Shown here piece after piece: positions 1 to 9,640 of a DNA stretch of 12,513 nucleotides (position 1 is the stretch's first letter; the number at the start of each line of letters is the position of its first letter). The notes beneath the pieces were generated by a model, which ran no database searches, was not told the DNA's origin, and worked only from the letters and a program-made list of their open reading frames with translations. The translations under genes were made by a program, and so were the position numbers. Origin of the DNA: Mariprofundus sp. (GTDB taxonomy: Bacteria; Pseudomonadota; Zetaproteobacteria; Mariprofundales; Mariprofundaceae); assembly GCA_030951095.1 (NCBI GenBank), contig JAUZQI010000170.1:1-12513 (forward strand), given 5' to 3'.

Positions 1-651
1 ACTACCGAGAAAAAGGTCGCAAAGGCCTGGAATGATTTCGGCGGACTGATAACCGCACTGAGTCATATCGTGGGTATTGATCCAGGTTGTGCAGTTGCTG
101 TCATATGCGTGGAATCCAGTGGCAAGGGATTTTCTGCGGACAAACGCATGATTATCCGTTTCGAGAATCATAAGTTCTGGAAATTCTGGGGCAAACAGCA
201 CCTGAATCAATTCAACGAACATTTTAAATATCAAAAAGGCAAAGCGTGGTTGGGCCATGAGTTTCGCTCCTCTGCCAACGCAGACTGGAATAATTTTCAC
301 GGCAAGCAGTCTCGCGAATGGGATGTATTCAATTTTGCCAAAGGTCTGGATGAACCAGCAGCCATGCAATCTATCAGTATGGGATTGCCGCAAATCATGG
401 GGTTTAATCATGCAGCAATTGGTTATGAGTCACCCGGGAAAATGTTTAGCAGATTTCAATTCGATATTCGATATCATATCCTCGGATTATTCGATTTCCT
501 GCGCGGTGCCGGAACCACATCCCCCATGCTGCAAGCATTGCAACGCAGCCAGTATGATCAGTTCGCTTCACACTATAACGGCTCCGGTCAAGCCGCCAAA
601 TACGCCACCTTGATAGAAAATCACTTCGAAACGTTCAAGAACCTGGCTTGA
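1..651 (+). CDS. N-acetylmuramidase domain protein (DUF3380 type), 5' partial
   Basis: The frame is open from base 1 to the TGA at 649-651, so the true start lies left of the window; a GTG at 70 is internal to the domain and is not a credible start. The 216 visible residues match the N-acetylmuramidase (DUF3380) family of peptidoglycan-cleaving endolysins. Seen: GIDPGCAVAV followed by VESSGKGF, whose Glu (visible residue 38) is the expected catalytic acid; IRFENHKFW; SMGLPQIMGFN; and the late FASHYNGSG motif. The visible part covers nearly the whole catalytic domain, so any missing N-terminus may be short or carry a peptidoglycan-binding module. It would hydrolyse the glycan strand, either as a phage lysin or a domesticated autolysin. 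No holin, spanin or other phage gene follows, so prophage origin is inference only. The next gene starts about 125 bases downstream. Confidence 0.85.
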   Translation, partial: TTEKKVAKAWNDFGGLITALSHIVGIDPGCAVAVICVESSGKGFSADKRMIIRFENHKFWKFWGKQHLNQFNEHFKYQKGKAWLGHEFRSSANADWNNFHGKQSREWDVFNFAKGLDEPAAMQSISMGLPQIMGFNHAAIGYESPGKMFSRFQFDIRYHILGLFDFLRGAGTTSPMLQALQRSQYDQFASHYNGSGQAAKYATLIENHFETFKNLA

Positions 652-776
652 TGGCGGGCATGTAGTATGGATTTTGGCTCATGAAATAGTCGTTCTTCAG
701 CCTGTCGAAAAAAATATGGAAAGTCTTATCTGAATTTATTAACCTGTGATCAGCAATGCAGGGGGGAAAACGTTTC
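652..776. promoter_or_regulatory. Intergenic leader with ribosome binding site for the ODP-GGDEF gene
   Basis: This gap holds a run of six G followed by AAAA at 761-770, a purine-rich Shine-Dalgarno-like site ending just ahead of the ATG at 777. That placement favours the 777 start over the in-frame ATG at 756, which has no such site. At 689-709 there is GTTCTTCAGCCTGTCGAA, which resembles half of a common dispersed intergenic repeat of the TTCGACAGGCT type; here it is single and degenerate. I see no clear terminator hairpin after the muramidase gene and no convincing sigma-70 promoter. Confidence 0.4.
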
Positions 777-2540
777 ATGGACAAGCAGTCTTTAGATACA
801 AACCATGCCATCAAAATATCGGAACGTATCTGGTGGGTAGGTCATTATATTGAGGGAGACCCGTTTCAGTGCCACACCTATCTGATTGAGAACGGCGATC
901 AATCCGTGCTATTCGATCCCGGATCAAAACTGACCTTTAATTATACGCTCGGGAAAATTGAAGAGGTAACCCCCTTCTCGAATATTCGCTACTTTGTCTG
1001 CCACCATCAGGATCCTGACATTACTGCAGCAATGGGGTTGATTGATCAGATGGTAAATCGTGACGATGTGCTTCTTGTGACACATTGGCGAGCGGCAGCA
1101 TTGCTGAAACATTATGACCTGAAAAATATCCCCTTCTGGCAGGTAGAAGAACACGACTGGAAACTGGAACTGGATGATCGCACCCTGCGCTTTATCTTCA
1201 CACCGTATATGCATTTCCCCGGTGCATTCTGCACCTTCGACGAAAAAAGCGGCATCATGTTTTCCAGTGATATCTTTGGAGGCTTTACCGAAGAATGGAG
1301 CCTGTATGCCAAAGATGAATCCCACTTCGAAGCAATCAAACCATTCCACGAACATTATATGCCCAGCCGCGAAATCATGCAGCACGGTTTATCCAGAATG
1401 CGGGAATACCCCATCAGGATGATCGCCCCGCAACATGGTTCCATTATTCCTGAAACGCTGGTGGATTTTATGTTTGATCGCCTGGCCGGGCTGGATTGTG
1501 GTTTGTATCTGATGGTCAAGGAAGATACGGACATCAAACATCTGGTAGCCATGAATCAGATGCTGCGGGAATCCATGGAAGCTATGATGTTATATCGGGA
1601 TTTCAGTGATATTGCCCATTATTTATTGAGCGCTGTACAAAAGATTCTCCCGATCAAGGCGCTATCATTCATGGTCAAGGATGATGGGCAGATGCTCTTG
1701 CTTGCTCCCGACAACTTTTATCATGGTGCAATTATTGATATCTCGCCTGATTTTCAGGAAATTTTTTCCTGTGATCAACATACCTGGCAAGAGAAACATT
1801 CAACCCACTACAAAAATATAGCCGCCCCTTCCTGTGAGGAGGTTCAGCTCGTGATGCCGTTATTTTCAGCTGAAAACAAAATCTGTCGGGCAGCAGTCGT
1901 CATGCATATGGAAGCCGAAACCACCATCAGTGCCGAAATAGATGCCTTGTTCAGTCGCCTGATGGAGCCATTATTAACCGCAGTCGAAAGGGAAATAATT
2001 TTCAGATCGATGGAAGAAGACCGTGATGTCATCTATGAGCGTTCTATCCGTGACCCCCTGACGGGGCTGTTCACCAGATTGTATATGAAGGACACGGTTT
2101 CCCGCATGCTTGAATTGCATGATCGCGAGATCAATTCATCTGTCTCTATCGTCATGTTTGATGTGGATCATTTCAAGCATGTGAATGATACCTATGGACA
2201 TATGACAGGTGATGAGGTTCTCAAAAAAGTCAGCTCTGTCATTCTGACAGAATGTCGCACCACTGATATCCCGGTACGCTTCGGAGGTGAGGAATTCCTG
2301 ACATTTATTGCTTCTTCCAGGCCCGGTTGCGGTAAAGGATTTGCCGAGCGTGTTCGCGAAAAAGTGGGAATGTTGTGTTTCAATGCCAACGATCAAAATT
2401 TTTCTGTCACTATCAGTGCCGGTATCGCCGCCCATGCTCAAAATGAACCGTTGCAGGAACTGATTCATCGCGTTGATATTGCTTTATATGCTGCCAAGGA
2501 AAGTGGAAGAAACCGTGTGTGTATTGCCCCGGATGTCTAG
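777..2540 (+). CDS. Diguanylate cyclase with N-terminal ODP-type diiron (MBL-fold) sensor and GAF-like linker
   Basis: This 587-residue soluble protein has three parts. Residues 10-245 form a metallo-beta-lactamase fold of the oxygen-binding diiron (ODP, flavodiiron-like) type: HHQDPD at 76-81, H146 in MHFPGAF, D165 in FSSDIFGGF and H220 in APQHGS supply the expected metal ligands. The position after the last D, often His in flavodiiron proteins, is Ile82. Residues about 270-410 look GAF-like. Residues 420-587 are a GGDEF domain with DPLTGLF, an intact GGEEF active site (503-507) and an intact RxxD inhibitory site (R494, D497) five residues before it. It should make cyclic di-GMP from two GTP, gated by iron, oxygen or redox state; the signal is inferred from the family. 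No transmembrane segment is seen. ATG 777 is preferred over 756 because of its ribosome binding site. The stop is TAG. Confidence 0.88.
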   Translation: MDKQSLDTNHAIKISERIWWVGHYIEGDPFQCHTYLIENGDQSVLFDPGSKLTFNYTLGKIEEVTPFSNIRYFVCHHQDPDITAAMGLIDQMVNRDDVLLVTHWRAAALLKHYDLKNIPFWQVEEHDWKLELDDRTLRFIFTPYMHFPGAFCTFDEKSGIMFSSDIFGGFTEEWSLYAKDESHFEAIKPFHEHYMPSREIMQHGLSRMREYPIRMIAPQHGSIIPETLVDFMFDRLAGLDCGLYLMVKEDTDIKHLVAMNQMLRESMEAMMLYRDFSDIAHYLLSAVQKILPIKALSFMVKDDGQMLLLAPDNFYHGAIIDISPDFQEIFSCDQHTWQEKHSTHYKNIAAPSCEEVQLVMPLFSAENKICRAAVVMHMEAETTISAEIDALFSRLMEPLLTAVEREIIFRSMEEDRDVIYERSIRDPLTGLFTRLYMKDTVSRMLELHDREINSSVSIVMFDVDHFKHVNDTYGHMTGDEVLKKVSSVILTECRTTDIPVRFGGEEFLTFIASSRPGCGKGFAERVREKVGMLCFNANDQNFSVTISAGIAAHAQNEPLQELIHRVDIALYAAKESGRNRVCIAPDV

Positions 2541-2706
2541 GTTGTTCATAAATCCTCATGTCCAGCTTCGTTTGTACTCAAACAGTAACAAGACAGCTAT
2601 GATTTTTTTCATCAAAAAAACACCAGTCGGCTATTCTGAACAGGGATCCATATTTATCCGCCAGATGATGCTTTCCCTATACCACTGCGGCACCTAGACT
2701 CGCCTC
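2541..2706. other. Intergenic gap between GGDEF and lptG genes
   Basis: No gene is evident here. The only structure seen is TTTTTTT-CATC-AAAAAAA (2603-2620), a pure A/T inverted repeat without a GC stem, which is too weak to call a terminator. No well-spaced sigma-70 promoter for lptG was found. Confidence 0.4.
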
Positions 2707-3765
2707 ATGCCTGTAATTTTCAGATGGATTTTTTCCGGCTGTATAAGCCGCTCATTGATCATGATGACAACATTGCTGGCAATTTATGTCATTATCGAAT
2801 CATTCGACAAGGCTCGTTATCTGGGCCATGGACTGAGTACCAATCAAATGCTCGAATACATCTTGCTGAAGATGCCATTCATGATCTCGGAATTTATGCC
2901 CATTATGGTTCTGATCGGTGCCAGCATTTACCTCATCGAAATTTCACGCCATCATGAAATAGTCGCCCTTCGGGCGGCGGGGCTTGGCATCAACAAGGTA
3001 CTGCTTCCCTTGCTCGCGGTAGGTTTTCTGGCCTCATTGCTGAGCTTTGCGATTGGCCAGTGGATCACCCCCGTCACCAATCAACGGCTGGATACGATTG
3101 AACAGGTAAATATCCAGCACAAACAAAACCCGAAACAGGGTATTCAGTGGCTAAAAGACGGACACAGATTTTTTCGACTGACCCCGCTAAGTGCAAATCA
3201 GTTCGCCCTGACCATGCTTGAAACCGGCAATAAGGGCAACTGGGTTCAACGAATTGACAGTGCCAGAGCCAGTTATGACCAGGGCACCTGGCATTTAAAC
3301 AATGTATATATCAGCACCCCGTCCAATGATGAGGGTATGCAGGTCGAGCAACAGGACAAACTATCCATCATATCTTCTGTCGGGCCTGAAACAACAGGGT
3401 TACCGAGGCCAAGGCATATGGATTTCTTCCAACTCTATCATTATATCTATGATCTCGAACGTGCAGGTTTAAGCGCCAGTTCCTATAGTTATGCCCTGCA
3501 CCGAAAATTTTCCGCCCCGTTCGCCTGTCTGCTGATGGTGATTCTCGCCGCCGCTTTATGCCTTGGCAGTGGTGACCGCAACAGTCGGGCATCATGGAGC
3601 CTGGTACTCACCATTTCACTGGGCCTGGCATTTTATATCGTAGGTAATGCCGGCCACCTATTAGCCAGCAGCGAACATTTGCCGGCGGCTTTCGCCGCCT
3701 GGCTACCCAGCCTCGTATTCGGAGGCATCGCCATCTTTCTATTACTCAAACGCGAAGGTCACTGA
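2707..3765 (+). CDS. lptG: LptG/LptF-family LPS export permease
   Basis: This 352-residue inner-membrane protein has the YjgP/YjgQ (LptF/LptG) layout: three N-terminal membrane helices (about 15-31, 60-78, 98-117), a periplasmic beta-jellyroll region (about 125-250) and three C-terminal helices (about 270-287, 298-316, 330-347). The cytoplasmic coupling segment after helix 2 reads EIVALRAAG (84-92), the conserved motif in this family. With LptB and its partner permease it would extract lipopolysaccharide from the inner membrane and feed it to LptC/LptA. The FFQLYHYIYDLERAG segment and length favour LptG over LptF, but this is not decisive. Usually lptF and lptG are adjacent; here no partner is present, and the downstream neighbour is convergent. 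ATG 2707 is kept because it gives the normal N-terminus, although the upstream bases offer little Shine-Dalgarno match. Confidence 0.85.
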   Translation: MPVIFRWIFSGCISRSLIMMTTLLAIYVIIESFDKARYLGHGLSTNQMLEYILLKMPFMISEFMPIMVLIGASIYLIEISRHHEIVALRAAGLGINKVLLPLLAVGFLASLLSFAIGQWITPVTNQRLDTIEQVNIQHKQNPKQGIQWLKDGHRFFRLTPLSANQFALTMLETGNKGNWVQRIDSARASYDQGTWHLNNVYISTPSNDEGMQVEQQDKLSIISSVGPETTGLPRPRHMDFFQLYHYIYDLERAGLSASSYSYALHRKFSAPFACLLMVILAAALCLGSGDRNSRASWSLVLTISLGLAFYIVGNAGHLLASSEHLPAAFAAWLPSLVFGGIAIFLLLKREGH

Positions 3766-3799
3766 ACCAGAGCCTGCCGAAACATAAAATCTGCCCGAA

Positions 3800-4933
3800 T
3801 CAGAAATACCAGTCAGCTCGAACAGCGTAGAGCGGCTCAAACACTGAGAACTCGGTGGTTCCACTGCCCTGCGGCAGCTGCGCAAAAAATCTTATATCCA
3901 CATTCTCGTCTGCCGACCAGGTTATCGACGGTGTAATAAACCAGCCGGATTGTTGCAGATCAGCAATCAGCAGCAGATCAATTCGCCACAGCGGCGTCAA
4001 ATCATATCCGAGCATACTGCCGAGCAAATGGTTTGAACGACCATTCAACCTATCCTGTTTAAAACGTGGCGAACCGGCTGCACCATTATAAAAATATTCC
4101 AGTGCCATATAAAGACCGTTGGGAAACCATGATGGATACCATGTATAATCGATGCCAGCTGACAGCTGCCCATAGCCCCCCTCCAGTGGATTTCTTGCCT
4201 GCATCCATTCCAGCTGCACACCAGCATCACCCATGTTGCCTGTAATATCGACACCGAACATATTTTCGTTATTGATACGCCCGGCCATCAGCGCCAGATC
4301 AAATTCGCCGAATGTATCCTGCCACCTGAACGCCAATTTGCGCGATGTGCGGGAAGATGGCCGAGCAGGAGCAGCGACGGCAATCAAACTGCCATTGCCC
4401 GCATAGTTCCATTCAATTCGGCCTGCATCCACACCCAGCTTTTCATTCGGCTCCAGTGCAGTTGGCTGCACCGGGTTAAAACGATCCGTCGGGTTCCAGA
4501 TACGCCCTGATCCCCATGCAATACGCTGTCGACCCAGTTTGACCCGCACCTGCCCGGCTGCATATTCGACCCAGCCCCGATATAAATCATGTCGCCAGTT
4601 AAAATGCGTGCGCCGGCTTATCGTTGCACTGGTATCCAGCCAGGTCGGATCGGGTTGGCGCAGTACTGCAGCCAATACAGGATCGGCCACCAAACCTCCC
4701 CATAACAGCTCATGATCATAAGCCAAGTGAAATCGAACATGCCCGTAATCTCCATCCGCTTCCAGTCGCAAACGATTCAAATCGGTTGTTCTATCCTGTT
4801 TCAGACTATCGCGTGTTTCAAACAGCAGGTTTGTATATTGGCCTGAGAGCTCCAGGGCGAAGCCCGGTTCAGCCAGCAGCGCTGAAAAAAGCCATGCAAT
4901 AAACAGTCTGGCGATGATTTTTTTCCTATTCAT
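3800..4933 (-). CDS. Outer-membrane beta-barrel protein of an ABC/LolA-like export cluster
   Basis: A 377-residue protein with a signal peptide (basic MNRKK, hydrophobic 7-21, likely cleavage after Ala26 in GFA). The mature part is rich in alternating aromatic and polar strands and ends in a terminal Phe (RADWYF), the usual BAM targeting signal, so it should be an outer-membrane barrel. A conserved block LGRQRIAWGSGRIWNPTD, followed by FNPVQP, is typical of porin-like barrels of the DUF1302/alginate-export class often found beside RND or ABC exporters and LolA-like proteins; family membership here is by recall. A TTG at 4939 would add two residues; ATG 4933 is preferred. It begins 13 bases after the ATPase stop, so it is the last gene of the minus-strand operon and is likely that system's outer-membrane partner. 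Substrate unknown. Confidence 0.7.
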   Translation of the reverse strand: MNRKKIIARLFIAWLFSALLAEPGFALELSGQYTNLLFETRDSLKQDRTTDLNRLRLEADGDYGHVRFHLAYDHELLWGGLVADPVLAAVLRQPDPTWLDTSATISRRTHFNWRHDLYRGWVEYAAGQVRVKLGRQRIAWGSGRIWNPTDRFNPVQPTALEPNEKLGVDAGRIEWNYAGNGSLIAVAAPARPSSRTSRKLAFRWQDTFGEFDLALMAGRINNENMFGVDITGNMGDAGVQLEWMQARNPLEGGYGQLSAGIDYTWYPSWFPNGLYMALEYFYNGAAGSPRFKQDRLNGRSNHLLGSMLGYDLTPLWRIDLLLIADLQQSGWFITPSITWSADENVDIRFFAQLPQGSGTTEFSVFEPLYAVRADWYF

Positions 4934-4946
4934 ATTCAATTGTGCT

Positions 4947-5636
4947 TCAAACGGTTTTGGATGACTCTATTCGCCCATCCTGCATGGTGATCAGAGTTCG
5001 CGCCGAGGCAATCACGGCCGGATCATGGGAGGCGATAACAAATGTCGTGCCCCGCTCTTCATTGAGTTGTCGCATCAAACCCATCAGCGATTCACCCGTA
5101 TGTGAATCAAGATTGGCCGTGGGTTCATCAGCCAGCACCAGGTCGGGTTCAGTTGCCAGCGCCCGCGCTACAGCCACTCGCTGCTGTTGACCGCCGGACA
5201 TCTGATCGGGCCGGCGGTTTTCAAATCCTTGCAGGCCCACTTTGGCCAACCACTGATCGGCCAGCCGGAAACGCTGTTTTTTGTCCATACCTTGCAATTG
5301 CAACACATAAGCAACATTTTCACGCGCACTCAACACCCGAATAAGGTTATAAGCCTGAAACACAAAACCGAGGTGGCATAAACGAAAGTTGGCTCGGCCA
5401 GCCGACGACATGGCCAGCAAATCCTGGCCGGCAATCACAAGTGAGCCTGAATCCGGCCGATCCAGTCCACCCAGCATATTCAGCAGCGTTGTCTTGCCCG
5501 AGCCGGAACGTCCGGCCAGCACCACATACGCCCCCCGGTTGATCAATAAATCGATACCATCCAGCGCCGCCACCCTCAACTCGCCACTTTCGTAATACCG
5601 GGTCAGTCCACTCGCTGATATTAATACTTCAGGCAT
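4947..5636 (-). CDS. LolD/MacB-type ABC transporter ATPase
   Basis: A 229-residue ATPase with all motifs: Walker A GRSGSGKT (42-49), Q-loop Q94, signature MSGGQ (146-150), Walker B LVLADEP (166-172) and H-loop H204. The LADEPTANLD wording and length place it in the LolD/MacB/FtsE subfamily, which works with FtsX-type (type VII) permeases by mechanotransmission and not by moving substrate through a channel. ATG 5636 is chosen over upstream in-frame starts because GGGAGAAA (5640-5647) sits just ahead of it and the protein then begins MPEVLISASGL as family members do. It would energise the two FtsX-type permeases encoded upstream on the same strand. An inverted repeat lies between it and the preceding permease gene. 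Confidence 0.92.
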   Translation of the reverse strand: MPEVLISASGLTRYYESGELRVAALDGIDLLINRGAYVVLAGRSGSGKTTLLNMLGGLDRPDSGSLVIAGQDLLAMSSAGRANFRLCHLGFVFQAYNLIRVLSARENVAYVLQLQGMDKKQRFRLADQWLAKVGLQGFENRRPDQMSGGQQQRVAVARALATEPDLVLADEPTANLDSHTGESLMGLMRQLNEERGTTFVIASHDPAVIASARTLITMQDGRIESSKTV

Positions 5637-5668
5637 GCGTTTCTCCCATATAAGCTTAACGAGCAGTA

Positions 5669-5769
5669 ACCATAAAGGCACGAAAGTGCAAAGAAAAACG
5701 AGAAAAACTGGCCAACAGGAAACAGAGATATCGCCTTTGACTTTCTTTGTGCCTTTGTGCCTCTGTGGT
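5669..5769. repeat. Imperfect inverted repeat element between permease 2 and ATPase genes
   Basis: The left arm at 5669-5696 begins ACCATAAAGGCACG and the right arm at 5742-5769 ends TGCCTCTGTGGT. By hand, the right arm matches the reverse complement of the left at 22 of 28 positions. About 45 bases separate the arms. In RNA from the minus strand this would form a long imperfect hairpin in the 156-base gap between two operon genes. The outer end (ACCACAGAG read from the right) is shared with the element at 7045-7189, so both belong to the same broad class of dispersed intergenic palindromes. Confidence 0.7.
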
Positions 5770-5792
5770 AAACCGTCTTTGACTCTTTCACG

Positions 5793-7028
5793 TTATAATT
5801 CCCGCAAAGCACTGGCCGGTTCCAGTTTGGAGGCTTTCCAGGCCGGGATCAGGCCTGCGATGATCGCGCCAAACAGCGAAGCTCCCAGAATACGCAGAAT
5901 GCTGTCGGCCTGCAGAAGCGGATGGATAACCGGATCCATGTACATAAACGAAAAGGCAATGGCGAACTGCGACAGGTCAATGCCATATTCACCATACCAG
6001 AGCGACAGGCCGCCACCGATAGTAAAACCGCTCAACCCGCCAATGAACACCAGAATCACCGTTTCCCATACGACCATAGCAAACACCTGAGCCGGGGCTA
6101 CTCCCAGCGCGCTCATCAGACCAAACTCGCGCACGCGCTCATGCATACTCATCAACATCGTATTGAGTACTTCGGCCAGCACCACGATAATTACAATCAG
6201 GAGCACAATCCAGGTATAAGCATCGGCAAAATCTGCCCATTGCTGCGCCATCGGATCGATATCGAACCAGCGCAACACTTCCATCCCCTGGCCTGACAGT
6301 GCATTTTTCAGATTTTCTGCCAATGGCGTGACTCGCTCGAAACTGTCTGCACGGATCACTATATCGGTTACAGCCTGGCCAATCCCTAACCATTGTTGCG
6401 CTGTAGTCAACGGCACAATCACGCTCATATCGTCCACATCCATCACCCCGGAATGGATCAACCCGCGCACCCGAAACACTTCAGAAGCAATATCGCCACC
6501 CGGCACTGCTGCCATCAATACCAGTTTATCGCCGATGCCAATACCGAGTCGGTCTGCCAATCCATCACCCAATACAGCTGCCCGTTTATCTCCTGCAGGC
6601 AGCCAGGCACCCGCCGAGATAAATGTGGCAAGCCGACTCAAGCGTTGCTCGGCTTCCGGCTCTACACCATAAATAAACGCACCCGCATTTGCGCCAGCAC
6701 TGGAAGCCAGCCCGGATACACGCACGCGTCGGGCCATAGTCTGTATGCCCGATATATTGCCAATAGCCTTCATCATCGCCTGCGGATCAACAATCCGTTG
6801 CGCCAGTTTGCGACTGTCTTCAAAACCATCGGCATGAATCTGAATATGTCCGGTCATGGTCAGCGCGAAGTTTGTCTTGATCTGCTGCATCCAGCCGTCA
6901 TCCATAGCCGAAAGGAATGTCAGTGCCGCAATGCCAATACCAAGGGCAACCGCCGTCAGCGTTGTACGCAACGGGTGCAACCACAGATTCCGCCACCCCA
7001 GCTTCAAATAAATCGACAGGTTATCCAC
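5793..7028 (-). CDS. FtsX/LolE-type ABC transporter permease (second permease)
   Basis: A 411-residue permease with one N-terminal membrane helix (about 23-41) after WRNLWLHPLRTTLTA, a large periplasmic MacB-type domain (about 45-265) and an FtsX domain with three C-terminal helices. Helix 2 is followed by the conserved cytoplasmic segment ERVREFGLMSALG, the coupling helix that contacts the LolD-like ATPase. The protein ends AWKASKLEPASALREL, typical of the family. The start is GTG at 7026-7028, with AAGG about ten bases upstream; the resulting N-terminus matches family norms. Length agrees with LolC/LolE. It is a paralogue of the split permease encoded at 8421-7213 and the two probably form the heterodimeric membrane part of one transporter that lifts a lipid or lipoprotein from the inner membrane. 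Stop is TAA. Confidence 0.88.
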   Translation of the reverse strand: MDNLSIYLKLGWRNLWLHPLRTTLTAVALGIGIAALTFLSAMDDGWMQQIKTNFALTMTGHIQIHADGFEDSRKLAQRIVDPQAMMKAIGNISGIQTMARRVRVSGLASSAGANAGAFIYGVEPEAEQRLSRLATFISAGAWLPAGDKRAAVLGDGLADRLGIGIGDKLVLMAAVPGGDIASEVFRVRGLIHSGVMDVDDMSVIVPLTTAQQWLGIGQAVTDIVIRADSFERVTPLAENLKNALSGQGMEVLRWFDIDPMAQQWADFADAYTWIVLLIVIIVVLAEVLNTMLMSMHERVREFGLMSALGVAPAQVFAMVVWETVILVFIGGLSGFTIGGGLSLWYGEYGIDLSQFAIAFSFMYMDPVIHPLLQADSILRILGASLFGAIIAGLIPAWKASKLEPASALREL

Positions 7029-7044
7029 CAGTCAAAACCTTTTG

Positions 7045-7189
7045 ACCACAGAGTACGCAAGGGACGCTGAGGAAAAGCAGATATTATGCGATGAACCTTC
7101 CATACGTTGATGATGTTTTATAACATAGAAATACATCATGATTTTAACCCAAATAGATTTTCCTCTGCGTACTCTGTATCCTCTGCGGT
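7045..7189. repeat. Imperfect inverted repeat element between the two permease genes
   Basis: The left arm at 7045-7076 begins ACCACAGAGTACGC and the right arm at 7158-7189 ends CCTCTGCGGT. The right arm matches the reverse complement of the left at 24 of 32 positions by hand count. The 81-base centre contains a smaller ATGATGT/ACATCAT pair. Together with flanking bases it fills the 184-base gap between permease 1 and permease 2. The sequence style (ACCACAGAG ... CTCTGCGGT) is that of widespread intergenic palindromic repeats in environmental Proteobacteria. No coding capacity is evident. Confidence 0.7.
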
Positions 7190-7212
7190 GCATGCATTTT
7201 AGTTTTTTCTGA

Positions 7213-7770
7213 TCAAACATGATGAATCGCCTCGACTGGCTCCAGACGTGCGGCACGAATAGCCGGCCAAATTGAGGCTGCGATAGCTGCTGCCAGCACC
7301 GCCAGGATCGTATCCAGCAAATGACTGTTATCAATCTCGGTATGGATCACCGGATTGAGATAGAAGCGGGCGACTGAATCCATTTGGCTGGAAAGGTCGA
7401 TCCCAACACCATGAAAATAATACACCAGAGCCAGCCCTGCCACGGTGCCAGCCACAATACCAGCCAGTCCCAGCAGCAACGACTCGATCACCACCATGGC
7501 CGCCAAACGTAAGCGGCCACAGCCCAATGCCATCATCACACCGAATTCATGCATACGTTCCAGCATACTCATTAGCGCAGTGTTCATGATGCCTGCGGCC
7601 ACAATCACCAGCACGATGGTAAGGAATATATAGTAAAACGCATTCTCCAGTTCCACCCACTGTTTCATCATCGGGTACATATCGTACCAGCGCAATACCT
7701 CATATGACTTGCCTAGTTTTGCTCTCAATGACGCAGTTACCAGCTCCAGCCTTTCAGGTGGCAGTTGCAC
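7213..7770 (-). CDS. FtsX-type permease 1, C-terminal half (after in-frame TAG)
   Basis: These 185 residues (GTG start at 7768-7770) are the C-terminal half of an FtsX/LolC-type permease: the end of the periplasmic domain (LRWYDMYPMMKQWVELENAF), helix 2, the ERMHEFGVMMALG coupling segment, helices 3 and 4, and the ending AIRAARLEPVEAIHHV. It lies in the same reading frame as the 7780-8421 half, separated only by TAG and three further codons (GAA ATT GTT). The sequence aligns well with the second permease (LRWFDIDPMAQQW there), so the half has not decayed. AGGA at 7778-7781, partly made by the TAG itself, stands seven bases before the GTG, so reinitiation could make this as a separate polypeptide. 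Otherwise it is the tail of a nonsense-mutated gene. The stop is TGA. Confidence 0.65.
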   Translation of the reverse strand: MQLPPERLELVTASLRAKLGKSYEVLRWYDMYPMMKQWVELENAFYYIFLTIVLVIVAAGIMNTALMSMLERMHEFGVMMALGCGRLRLAAMVVIESLLLGLAGIVAGTVAGLALVYYFHGVGIDLSSQMDSVARFYLNPVIHTEIDNSHLLDTILAVLAAAIAASIWPAIRAARLEPVEAIHHV

Positions 7771-7782
7771 AACAATTTCCTA
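7768..7782 (-). other. In-frame amber codon and overlapping reinitiation site in permease 1
   Basis: On the minus strand the gene reads CAT TAG GAA ATT GTT GTG CAA. The TAG (7782-7780) is in frame with both halves, so a single base change, for example from CAG, would restore one open frame of about 402 codons, the length of the second permease. The same bases give AGGA seven bases upstream of GTG. Two other genes in the window (ending at 2540 and 9275) use TAG as their normal stop, so general recoding of TAG is unlikely. Confidence 0.75.
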
Positions 7783-8421
7783 ATGCCGCCCGCCCATAGC
7801 TGTCATCTGCTGTAGAAAGCCAAGCGGGATAATCGCCAAACCACGGTCGATACCCATCTCACCACTGGTGATCATACCAACCAGTGTCAGCTTTTCCGCT
7901 GCCAGCGAGCCATATCGGTCTTCGGTTAAAAAAACGACGTCATCGCCAATGTCAACCCCGAGATTTCGGGCAGTCGTCTTCCCCAACACGCATGCAGCTT
8001 CATCATTATCCCGAATAAAACGGCCATGATCAACTTTGGCAGCAATGCGCGTTGCATTCTTCTCCATGTCAGGATTCATACCGAGCAGAACAAGACCTTC
8101 GGAGCTTTCATCACCCGCTGCCAGCGCGAAAGTGCGTAGTCGGTAGCTGAAATTCTTTACCCCGTTCGCTTTCAACAGTTGAATCACCCGCCCCGAATCC
8201 GGTACTGTTTTCACCATCTGTGGATGATGGAAAAAACCATTCGAGTGAACCTGGATACTGCCGACAATCACCTGTTGCAGATTACGCATCATGGCATTGT
8301 GCACACCATCATTAAAACCCCAGAGGAAGATAAGTGAAGCCAGACCCATCGCGACCGCAGACACAGTAATCAGGCTGCGGCGAGCATTACGCACAACATT
8401 GCGCCAGGCCAGTGACAGCAT
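7780..8421 (-). CDS. FtsX-type permease 1, N-terminal half (ends at in-frame TAG)
   Basis: These 213 residues begin MLSLAWRNVVRNARRSLITVSAV, the usual FtsX/LolC N-terminus, with one membrane helix (about 17-36) and then most of a MacB-type periplasmic domain (ASLIFLWGFNDG to FLQQMTAMGGRH). The product would be anchored in the inner membrane with its bulk in the periplasm. It stops at TAG 7780-7782, just before the end of the periplasmic domain, in the region where the second permease continues without a break. Its ATG shares its A with the TGA of the upstream LolA-like gene (TGATG), so it is translationally coupled to that gene. Taken with the 7213-7770 half this is one permease, either broken by a nonsense change or made as two chains. 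Confidence 0.65.
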   Translation of the reverse strand: MLSLAWRNVVRNARRSLITVSAVAMGLASLIFLWGFNDGVHNAMMRNLQQVIVGSIQVHSNGFFHHPQMVKTVPDSGRVIQLLKANGVKNFSYRLRTFALAAGDESSEGLVLLGMNPDMEKNATRIAAKVDHGRFIRDNDEAACVLGKTTARNLGVDIGDDVVFLTEDRYGSLAAEKLTLVGMITSGEMGIDRGLAIIPLGFLQQMTAMGGRH

Positions 8422-9197
8422 CAGTGCCCGCTTTGGCGCAAGTTAGCCCGGGTGAATATCTGTGCCTTGATCGGCACATTAAAACTGATATTTTCCAGTA
8501 TCATCACCGTGCGTTTTTCGGGTTTGTCCATGGGGTGCATGATCCAACGAGAAGGGATATCACGCCCACCCATGTGCCTGACCTTATCGAAAGCCAGCTG
8601 ACGGATATGTTTGCCATGTTCATCATAATAATCTTCGGAAAGCGGTATGGCATCGTGTGTAATACGACGAACGATCTTGCCCCATACCACGGGAGCATTC
8701 GGCTTTGGTACTGATTCAACTACATAAACGCCATCCACATCAGACAACAGCTTGTGGCTATAGTCCGCCACTACCGACTCCATCTTGACCAGATCATCAT
8801 TGGTAAAATCCGACCCCATCCAATTGGAAAGCATCATCGAAGGCGGGATACGGATATCGCGCTCCAGCTTGGGCAGATACATCCATAGATTATCGCCATC
8901 CTTGAGCCAGGTGGTGTTTTTATCTTTCCGGGGAGCAAGAATACGAATAAAAAAACGCTTTTTTGTACGATCATCCCAGGCATCCAGGCGCACGTCGCGT
9001 TGCCAGTCTGCAGTCTCAATACGCATGCTATATCTGGCAATACTTGTATCAGAACGGAGCCTGTCCTGCACTTGCCTGATCAGATCACGAGCGACCACAT
9101 CACTTCGACCACTATCCGGCGCATCATTCTGAGAATGTCCTGTCAGCGGCAGTCCTGCCAAAATGAATATCAGTGTCGAAAACATGAAAAGTCTCAT
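8421..9197 (-). CDS. Outer-membrane lipoprotein-sorting protein, LolA-like
   Basis: A 258-residue secreted protein: signal peptide (about 1-22, hydrophobic FMFSTLIFILAGLPL) and then a single LolA-like beta domain of the outer-membrane lipoprotein-sorting (PF17131-type) family. The hallmark NWMGSDFTNDDLVK (125-138) is present, as are LWMYLPKLERDIRIPP (104-119) and the closing NVPIKAQIFTRANLR. The LolA fold binds acyl chains in a hydrophobic cup and carries lipidated cargo across the periplasm. No lipobox Cys is seen, so it is probably a soluble shuttle. It precedes two FtsX permeases, an ATPase and a barrel, so it is likely the periplasmic carrier of that transporter and distinct from housekeeping LolA. 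Its stop overlaps the next start by one base. ATG 9197 has only a weak GAG-type ribosome site. Confidence 0.88.
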   Translation of the reverse strand: MRLFMFSTLIFILAGLPLTGHSQNDAPDSGRSDVVARDLIRQVQDRLRSDTSIARYSMRIETADWQRDVRLDAWDDRTKKRFFIRILAPRKDKNTTWLKDGDNLWMYLPKLERDIRIPPSMMLSNWMGSDFTNDDLVKMESVVADYSHKLLSDVDGVYVVESVPKPNAPVVWGKIVRRITHDAIPLSEDYYDEHGKHIRQLAFDKVRHMGGRDIPSRWIMHPMDKPEKRTVMILENISFNVPIKAQIFTRANLRQSGH

Positions 9198-9274: not shown

Positions 9275-9640
9275 CTATTCGGAAAAATTGATGAACGGTG
9301 CCAGACTCACATAGAGAATAAACAGGGTCATCAGAAAAAAGAGCAGAAACTGCAAGGGCTTTTGCCTTATTTTATCGGTAACCTTCGGGTGACGGCCTTC
9401 GTCTTTTAACAATCGATATTCAATTTTAGCTCGCCTGGTTCTTTCCTGCTGATAAATATCAATTAAGGCACCGGCCTCTTCCAGCCTGCTGTTATCATGA
9501 ATCCAGATAGCAGGCACCGAGATTCCCCACCCTCCGGCTTCGGTCTCATAATATTCGATACCATGTTCCTGCAACAATTGCCGGATGTCTTCGGCCTCAT
9601 CATCAGGCACATTCCTCAACTTAAATAGTTTCGCAGCCAT
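9275..9640 (-). CDS. DUF6164-type small membrane protein
   Basis: A 121-residue protein. The N-terminal 65 residues (KLFKLRNVPDDEAEDIRQLL, then EHGIEYYET and GGWGISVPAIWI) match the DUF6164 family, related in style to DUF2007-type putative signal-transducing domains with a ferredoxin-like fold. A basic stretch (68-94) leads to a single C-terminal membrane helix (about 96-113), so the domain probably faces the cytoplasm as a tail-anchored protein. Function is not established. GGTAGGAAT just before ATG 9640 is a good ribosome binding site. It ends in TAG 77 bases upstream of the LolA-like gene on the same strand and may be the first gene of that transcript, although members also occur alone. 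It is divergent from the pilin gene. Confidence 0.75.
   Translation of the reverse strand: MAAKLFKLRNVPDDEAEDIRQLLQEHGIEYYETEAGGWGISVPAIWIHDNSRLEEAGALIDIYQQERTRRAKIEYRLLKDEGRHPKVTDKIRQKPLQFLLFFLMTLFILYVSLAPFINFSE

Follow-up and report, generated by a model that had tools for sequence, protein, structure and literature searches.

It is still largely an open question how the bacterial outer membrane receives hydrophobic molecules other than lipopolysaccharide (LPS) and lipoproteins, and a locus in a genome bin of Mariprofundus sp., a bacterium of an iron-oxidizing type, raises it in concrete form: what is the task of a five-gene cassette that encodes a LolA-like carrier, two FtsX-type permeases (FtsX1 and FtsX2), a LolD-type ATPase and an outer-membrane beta-barrel? 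The cassette lies on a stretch of 12,513 nucleotides (the window; GenBank contig JAUZQI010000170.1, here C80), which is the entire contig, in a bin of 1.65 Mb on 193 contigs that is 78% complete. On balance, and with slightly better than even confidence, we read the cassette as a self-contained envelope route for a lipid or other lipophile that is driven by an ATP-binding cassette (ABC) transporter, the ABC counterpart of known combinations of a resistance-nodulation-division (RND) or MMPL pump with a LolA-fold carrier and a DUF1302 barrel.

Gene content and protein families

The five genes follow one another on the minus strand from 9197 to 3800 in the order carrier, FtsX1, FtsX2, ATPase and barrel (Table 1). 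This is the order, with the coordinates, given by the initial annotation of the window, except that FtsX1 is not intact: an in-frame TAG splits it at 7780-7782. Elsewhere in the genome, contig C114 encodes a LolCE-type permease that scores 416.9 bits against TIGR02212, above the curated cut-off, with a LolD-type ATPase adjoining it; C125 carries a LolA match (PF03548) downstream of a gene that we read as FtsK-like; and a LolB match (PF03550) at the end of contig C21, above the cut-off but weak (E 4.3e-6), adjoins genes that we read as ispE- and prs-like. In Escherichia coli the gene order is lolB-ispE-prs. With LolA, a LolCE/D pair and a weakly matching LolB encoded outside it, the cassette is, by gene content, a second system distinct from the housekeeping Lol genes. 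The initial annotation had suggested such a separation and proposed a search for a second Lol set, which these contigs supply; its suggestion is further borne out by the cassette proteins, which score under the Lol cut-offs.

The carrier scores 157.9 bits against PF17131 (LolA_like; curated cut-off, 30 bits) and is not a member of the LolA family PF03548, and its structure model shows a LolA fold of the DUF1329 type. It is a DUF1329/LolA_like protein rather than a LolA. FtsX2 contains MacB_PCD (1.2e-18) and FtsX (2.1e-16) domains and five hydropathy windows, two of them overlapping, which we interpret as four membrane segments; in FtsX1, MacB_PCD lies in the piece before the stop and FtsX in the piece after it. 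Against TIGR02212 (lolCE), FtsX2 reaches 130.4 bits and FtsX1, read across the TAG, 107.8 bits, both under the cut-off of 362.45. By profile comparison FtsX2 is closest to LolE (117.5 bits), followed by MacB (72.4) and LolC (43.6), whereas an FtsX1 profile built from relatives, with the window copy excluded, is closest to LolF, then LolE, then LolC. The best NCBIfam match of the ATPase is TIGR02211 (LolD) at 213.4 bits, under the cut-off of 307.75. A motif search found its Walker A (GRSGSGKT) and signature (MSGGQ) sequences; Walker B (LVLADE) was missed by the pattern search and recognized by eye only. Among the 10 window proteins scanned there was no match to LolB (PF03550), in agreement with the earlier remark that the cassette has no LolB-like gene, and none to a membrane-fusion protein or TolC-type family. 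A MacB-type tripartite pump is disfavored, as LolE and LolF are better permease matches than MacB, although MacB exceeds LolC for FtsX2.

The gene in the last position encodes a protein with a signal-peptide-like start and a C-terminal Phe, as first annotated. Its nearest named relatives are Mariprofundus sequences, and searches of PHROGs and of PDB sequences gave no match. Against DUF1302 (PF06980) the window barrel scores 13.5 bits (E 0.036), under the curated cut-off of 23.2, while 16 of 40 members of the barrel family match DUF1302 at E <= 0.01. A profile of that family matches three DUF1302-type barrels of MMPL cassettes at 98.6% (E 6.4e-16) and three barrels of the second cassette version described below (version B) at 99.8% (E 1.1e-28). 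As judged from sequence, the ABC-linked barrel is homologous to the barrels of the MMPL cassettes and is a remote, probably porin-like relative of DUF1302. Its model has 19 predicted strand elements, or 18 if residues 101-108 are counted as a loop strand, and the solved folds closest to this model, at roughly 6-12% identity, are OprD/Occ uptake porins and the exporter AlgE. Barrels of the OprD/AlgE kind are 18-stranded.

Conservation across lineages

When a collection of genomes was scanned with nothing but the barrel alignment, 268 relatives were obtained, and the best 80 of them were analyzed as loci. Upstream of the barrel, 67 of these 80 carry genes for a LolA-like protein, one or two FtsX proteins and an ATPase; nine are cut by contig ends and four are incomplete (L072, L103, L114 and L118). 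Counted over the genes upstream of the barrel, the complete loci show the orders carrier-ATPase-FtsX-FtsX-barrel (32 loci), carrier-FtsX-FtsX-ATPase-barrel (29) and carrier-FtsX-ATPase-barrel (6); on the downstream side there is one extra same-strand FtsX match, a weak one (L111). The neighborhood is thus conserved and not scattered; scattered neighborhoods would have counted against the initial annotation. According to record titles, the loci come from Zeta-, Beta- and Gammaproteobacteria, KSB1, Elusimicrobia, Acidobacteria and Ignavibacteria. Complete ones include Mariprofundus erugo, Ralstonia pickettii, Herbaspirillum, Roseateles puraquae and Piscinibacter, together with bins titled Acidobacteria, KSB1, Elusimicrobia and Ignavibacteriae, and further copies occur in one Vibrio campbellii and one Persicobacter record. 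When the 625 flanking open reading frames (ORFs) of at least 100 amino acids (aa) from the 80 loci were clustered, no partner was common across lineages, and the widest cluster, of response-regulator-like genes at scattered positions, covered 11 loci. Because flanking genes are not shared across lineages, the cassette appears to be a self-contained unit.

Variants of the layout were also seen. The six single-FtsX cassettes are L098, L100, L111, L121, L126 and L130, and their lone FtsX might work as a homodimer in the manner of LolF. A small gene stands between ATPase and barrel in L059 (where it belongs to the SirB family, PF04247), L060, L061, L062, L067 and L078. Phosphoketolase genes separate carrier and ATPase in L108, L119 (an XFP family match), L124 and L127, and L118 has one upstream of its ATPase; in seven Betaproteobacterial loci, genes judged FtsH-like by eye are found upstream. 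One Zetaproteobacterial contig encodes, at a distance downstream, part of another barrel from this family (L071, 14347-14727), and another genome, G108, has three barrel matches on a single contig.

Two mutually exclusive versions in the genus

Within a sample of 23 Mariprofundus-type genomes, the window's own included, the barrel of the window's type (version A) was found in 10 and that of version B in 10; no genome had both and three had neither. If the two were independent, an overlap of zero would have a chance of 2.5e-4, a value that ignores the relatedness and incompleteness of the genomes. In G019, one of the three without either barrel, the contig breaks off at a version B carrier gene, and a DUF6164 gene is present. 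Version B proteins are only distantly related to those of the window (identities of about 35% for the carrier, 26-33% for the permeases, 50% for the ATPase and 25% for the barrel), and the two versions often occupy the same site: pilin and DUF6164 genes stand beside the cassette in five of six version A loci (G000, G018, G006, G011 and G002) and five of eight version B loci (G008, G016, G001, G012 and G020) with upstream sequence, the contigs of the remaining A loci being too short upstream to judge. When the sequences of carrier, ATPase and barrel were concatenated for a tree (75 of 92 loci, 17 incomplete ones having been dropped), the 21 A-group loci formed one clade, and the nine B loci, among them G024 from a sister genus, clustered with Vibrio and Persicobacter (support 0.87) and not with A. 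Carrier and barrel distances are correlated with r of 0.94. Most simply, these data suggest that the five genes are traded together, in many cases at one set position. Such exchange speaks for a joint function of their products and for an identical role of versions A and B.

MMPL cassettes in the genus and elsewhere

Cassettes of an MMPL pump with LolA_like/DUF1329 and DUF1302 proteins are found in the genus (G011 and G004) and in the family (G024); the three Pfam families were confirmed in G011, to which the other two were assigned by similarity. The window's genome itself has pieces of such a cassette on C12 and C99. One MMPL cassette (L143) has an additional gene, FAD-oxygenase-like by eye, between carrier and pump. 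A plasmid search with the Ralstonia barrel gave three records, one of them a Haliovirga abyssi plasmid on which MMPL, LolA_like, ferredoxin and related barrel genes follow a TetR gene (L152, 2479-7936).

Two published systems have this layout with an RND-type pump. Castellaniella defragrans AmeABCD combines an HAE3 RND pump with a DUF1329 protein and a DUF1302 barrel, and its deletion reduced monoterpene tolerance (PMC6394551). In Pseudomonas putida, PP_0765 (DUF1302) and PP_0766 (DUF1329), which are predicted to bind each other, serve together with PP_2018/PP_2019 in Tween 20 metabolism (PMC10866462). An MMPL/LolA-like protein and a neighboring porin-like protein of Thalassolituus increase on a long-chain alkane (PMC6304351), and operons with MMPL and LolA_like genes in Porphyromonas gingivalis and Prevotella, whose layout the Haliovirga plasmid resembles, are strongly upregulated under iron limitation (PMC10434189). 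Given these layouts in the genus and in the literature, neither carrier nor barrel is of a new kind, and it is the engine that sets the cassette apart. The arrangement itself has thus been published with an RND/MMPL pump (PMC6394551, PMC10866462), and what may be new about the cassette is its ABC engine. In searches of an open-access full-text library we recognized no account of an ABC, LolA_like and barrel cassette, and "undescribed" is used here provisionally.

The interrupted FtsX1 gene and other features of the window

The TAG divides FtsX1 into ORFs of 213 and 185 aa. In relatives the gene is uninterrupted, with a sense codon at that position, and internal stops occur in 4 of 361 cassette stretches from the 80 related loci, none of them beyond residue 34 of its aligned stretch. 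We reject recoding of TAG, since this codon ends two further window genes in the ordinary way and is replaced by a sense codon in relatives. Given that relatives have the gene intact, the window FtsX1 is thus a lost allele, a variant within the population or an error of the consensus sequence.

Table 1. Coordinates of the cassette genes, their spacers and neighbor, and related MMPL cassettes
Feature	Coordinates	Strand	Remarks
LolA_like carrier (PF17131, DUF1329-type), periplasmic, 258 aa	8421..9197	-	no Cys in residues 1-35, no lipobox
FtsX-type permease 1 (FtsX1)	7213..8421	-	ORFs 8421-7780 and 7770-7213 flank the in-frame TAG
FtsX1/FtsX2 spacer	7033..7212	-	dispersed palindrome repeat, arms 7048-7064 and 7161-7177
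FtsX-type permease 2 (FtsX2), 411 aa	5793..7028	-	GTG start
FtsX2/ATPase spacer	5690..5792	-	second dispersed repeat
LolD-type ATPase, 229 aa	4947..5636	-	alternative start GTG 5681
Outer-membrane barrel, 377 aa	3800..4933	-	signal-peptide-like start, terminal Phe, conserved stretch GRQRIAWGSGRIWNPTDRFNP
DUF6164 gene, upstream neighbor	9275..9640	-	PF19661, 5.5e-40; marks the site common to both cassette versions
MMPL cassette, same family (L143)	641-6587
MMPL cassette, same family (L144)	4566-9044
MMPL cassette, same family (L145)	4102-8518

Two repeat-bearing spacers break up the run of genes in the window. The repeat of the FtsX1/FtsX2 spacer has 18 matches in the genome and that of the FtsX2/ATPase spacer five, in each case including the window's two and with none in the reversed control. 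One of the 18 directly follows the MMPL-type carrier gene on C12, and another coincides with the beginning of the MMPL-type barrel gene on C99. The gap at the FtsX1/FtsX2 junction measures 150-200 nt in L035, L037, L040, L041 and L042 and 24-26 nt in L034 and L036, where the first spacer is missing. Convergent with the barrel gene, at 2707-3765, is an LptG gene (above the TIGR04408 cut-off), which adjoins the cassette in G018 and G004 as well; a further gene at 756-2540 encodes a GGDEF domain fused with an ODP-type metallo-beta-lactamase domain.

Possible functions

In the route that we favor, FtsX1, FtsX2 and the LolD-type ATPase would lift a lipid or other lipophilic, nonprotein cargo from the inner membrane, the soluble DUF1329/LolA_like carrier would ferry it across the periplasm, and the probably porin-like barrel, standing in LolB's place, would receive it for delivery to the outer membrane or cell surface. 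Transporters of the LolCDE/MacB kind are established as working outward, and we assign an outward direction to the cassette because its permeases and ATPase are of this kind. A lipid or lipophile is favored over lipoproteins because carrier and barrel belong to the same kind as those of the RND systems, published examples of which deal with hydrophobic compounds, in monoterpene tolerance (PMC6394551) and in Tween 20 metabolism (PMC10866462). The dedicated envelope-spanning route first proposed for this locus therefore holds as a separate and conserved set of genes, whereas its working as a single route, with the products forming a complex, its direction and its cargo are what we infer.

Several observations weigh against this reading. 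No cargo gene is linked to the cassette, and its flanks vary by lineage. A barrel match at E <= 1e-15 occurs in only 56 of 398 sampled genomes of the phylum, 48 of them from the window's family, so the barrel is dispensable. L103, L114 and L118 are incomplete, the cassette of G022 has no LolA-like carrier gene at the locus, and the site in G029 consists of ATPase and barrel only, with an assembly gap upstream. As regards exchange at a fixed place, G003, G010 and G013 (version B) and G022 (version A) have upstream sequence without the pilin and DUF6164 genes, and the distance correlations are weaker for carrier and ATPase (0.78) and for ATPase and barrel (0.735), all such values being inflated by relatedness. 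Finally, the window's own copy may be inactive because of the stop in FtsX1.

The resemblance to Lol proteins invites the idea of a second, specialized lipoprotein sorting system, in which the ABC unit would release a subset of lipoproteins, the LolA_like protein would carry them and the barrel would take over from LolB by inserting them or flipping them to the surface. Permeases nearest LolE and LolF, an ATPase nearest LolD and a carrier modeled with a LolA fold speak for it, but we regard it as unlikely: permeases and ATPase fall under the curated Lol cut-offs, published RND-linked proteins of the carrier's DUF1329 type have to do with hydrophobic compounds, and no flanking gene recurs in more than 11 of the 80 loci, lipoboxes and short ORFs lying outside that scan. 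A quite unlikely alternative is that the ABC unit is a pump removing toxic lipophiles from the envelope, as has been proposed for AmeABCD, whose deletion lowered monoterpene tolerance (PMC6394551). The patchy distribution of the barrel would suit this, as would the FtsH-like, phosphoketolase or metal-ATPase-like genes near several Betaproteobacterial loci (seen by eye except for phosphoketolase), yet 20 of 23 genus genomes have version A or B, which fits a constitutive envelope role better than occasional stress. Nor is Mariprofundus known to use hydrocarbons.

To transport in the inward or retrograde direction, with the barrel taking up a lipophile and the carrier bringing it to the inner membrane, we give little credence. 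It accords with the requirement of PP_0765/PP_0766 for Tween 20 metabolism (PMC10866462), with the rise of the Thalassolituus MMPL/LolA-like and porin-like proteins on a long-chain alkane (PMC6304351) and with the model of the barrel, whose closest solved structures include uptake porins of the OprD/Occ type besides the exporter AlgE. Among the flanking ORFs of the 80 loci, however, no catabolic gene is widely recurrent beside the cassette. Its permeases and ATPase, moreover, are of the LolCDE/MacB kind, which works outward.

Returning to an outward lipid route, we tentatively extend it, at less than even confidence, to a cross-phylum, horizontally mobile system of LolCDE-like ABC transporter, DUF1329 carrier and barrel, with an engine that could be exchanged between ABC and RND types and with carrier and barrel always drawn from the same families. 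Such a system may bring a lipid to the surface with the help of neither LolB nor a bridge protein. A compact module with its own pump, carrier and outer-membrane acceptor, apparently replaced as a whole and present in cultured bacteria, makes the question of how hydrophobic molecules travel to the outer membrane directly testable.

Comparison with known systems

Like LolABCDE, the cassette has an FtsX-type permease pair, a LolD-type ATPase and a soluble LolA-fold carrier. It differs in that the carrier is of the DUF1329/LolA_like family, the permeases and ATPase lie under the Lol cut-offs, a barrel is present with no LolB among the scanned window genes, and the genome has a separate Lol set. 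To LolF-type permeases (PDB 9w37 and others) it is linked by the FtsX1 profile, which is closest to them, and by the single FtsX of 6 of the 67 complete cassettes, and to these it adds the barrel and the DUF1329-type carrier. OprD/Occ porins and AlgE share about 6-12% identity with the cassette barrel, and their genes are not known to be part of a Lol-like cassette.

With AmeABCD, the cassette shares a LolA-fold carrier and a DUF1302-related barrel that adjoin an inner-membrane pump; it is structure and profile comparison, and not the Pfam cut-off, that place the two proteins with the AmeABCD type. The window cassette has no HAE3/MMPL-type RND pump and has ABC permeases and an ATPase instead; no AmeC-like (COG4447) gene was seen among its five, although no search was aimed at COG4447. 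PP_0765/PP_0766 likewise pair a barrel with a LolA-fold partner, but the P. putida transporter is a multidrug efflux system with gene numbers far from those of the pair. Taken with the cassette, these systems suggest that a LolA-fold carrier and a DUF1302-related barrel are the constant part of a wider class that is powered by either an RND or an ABC engine.

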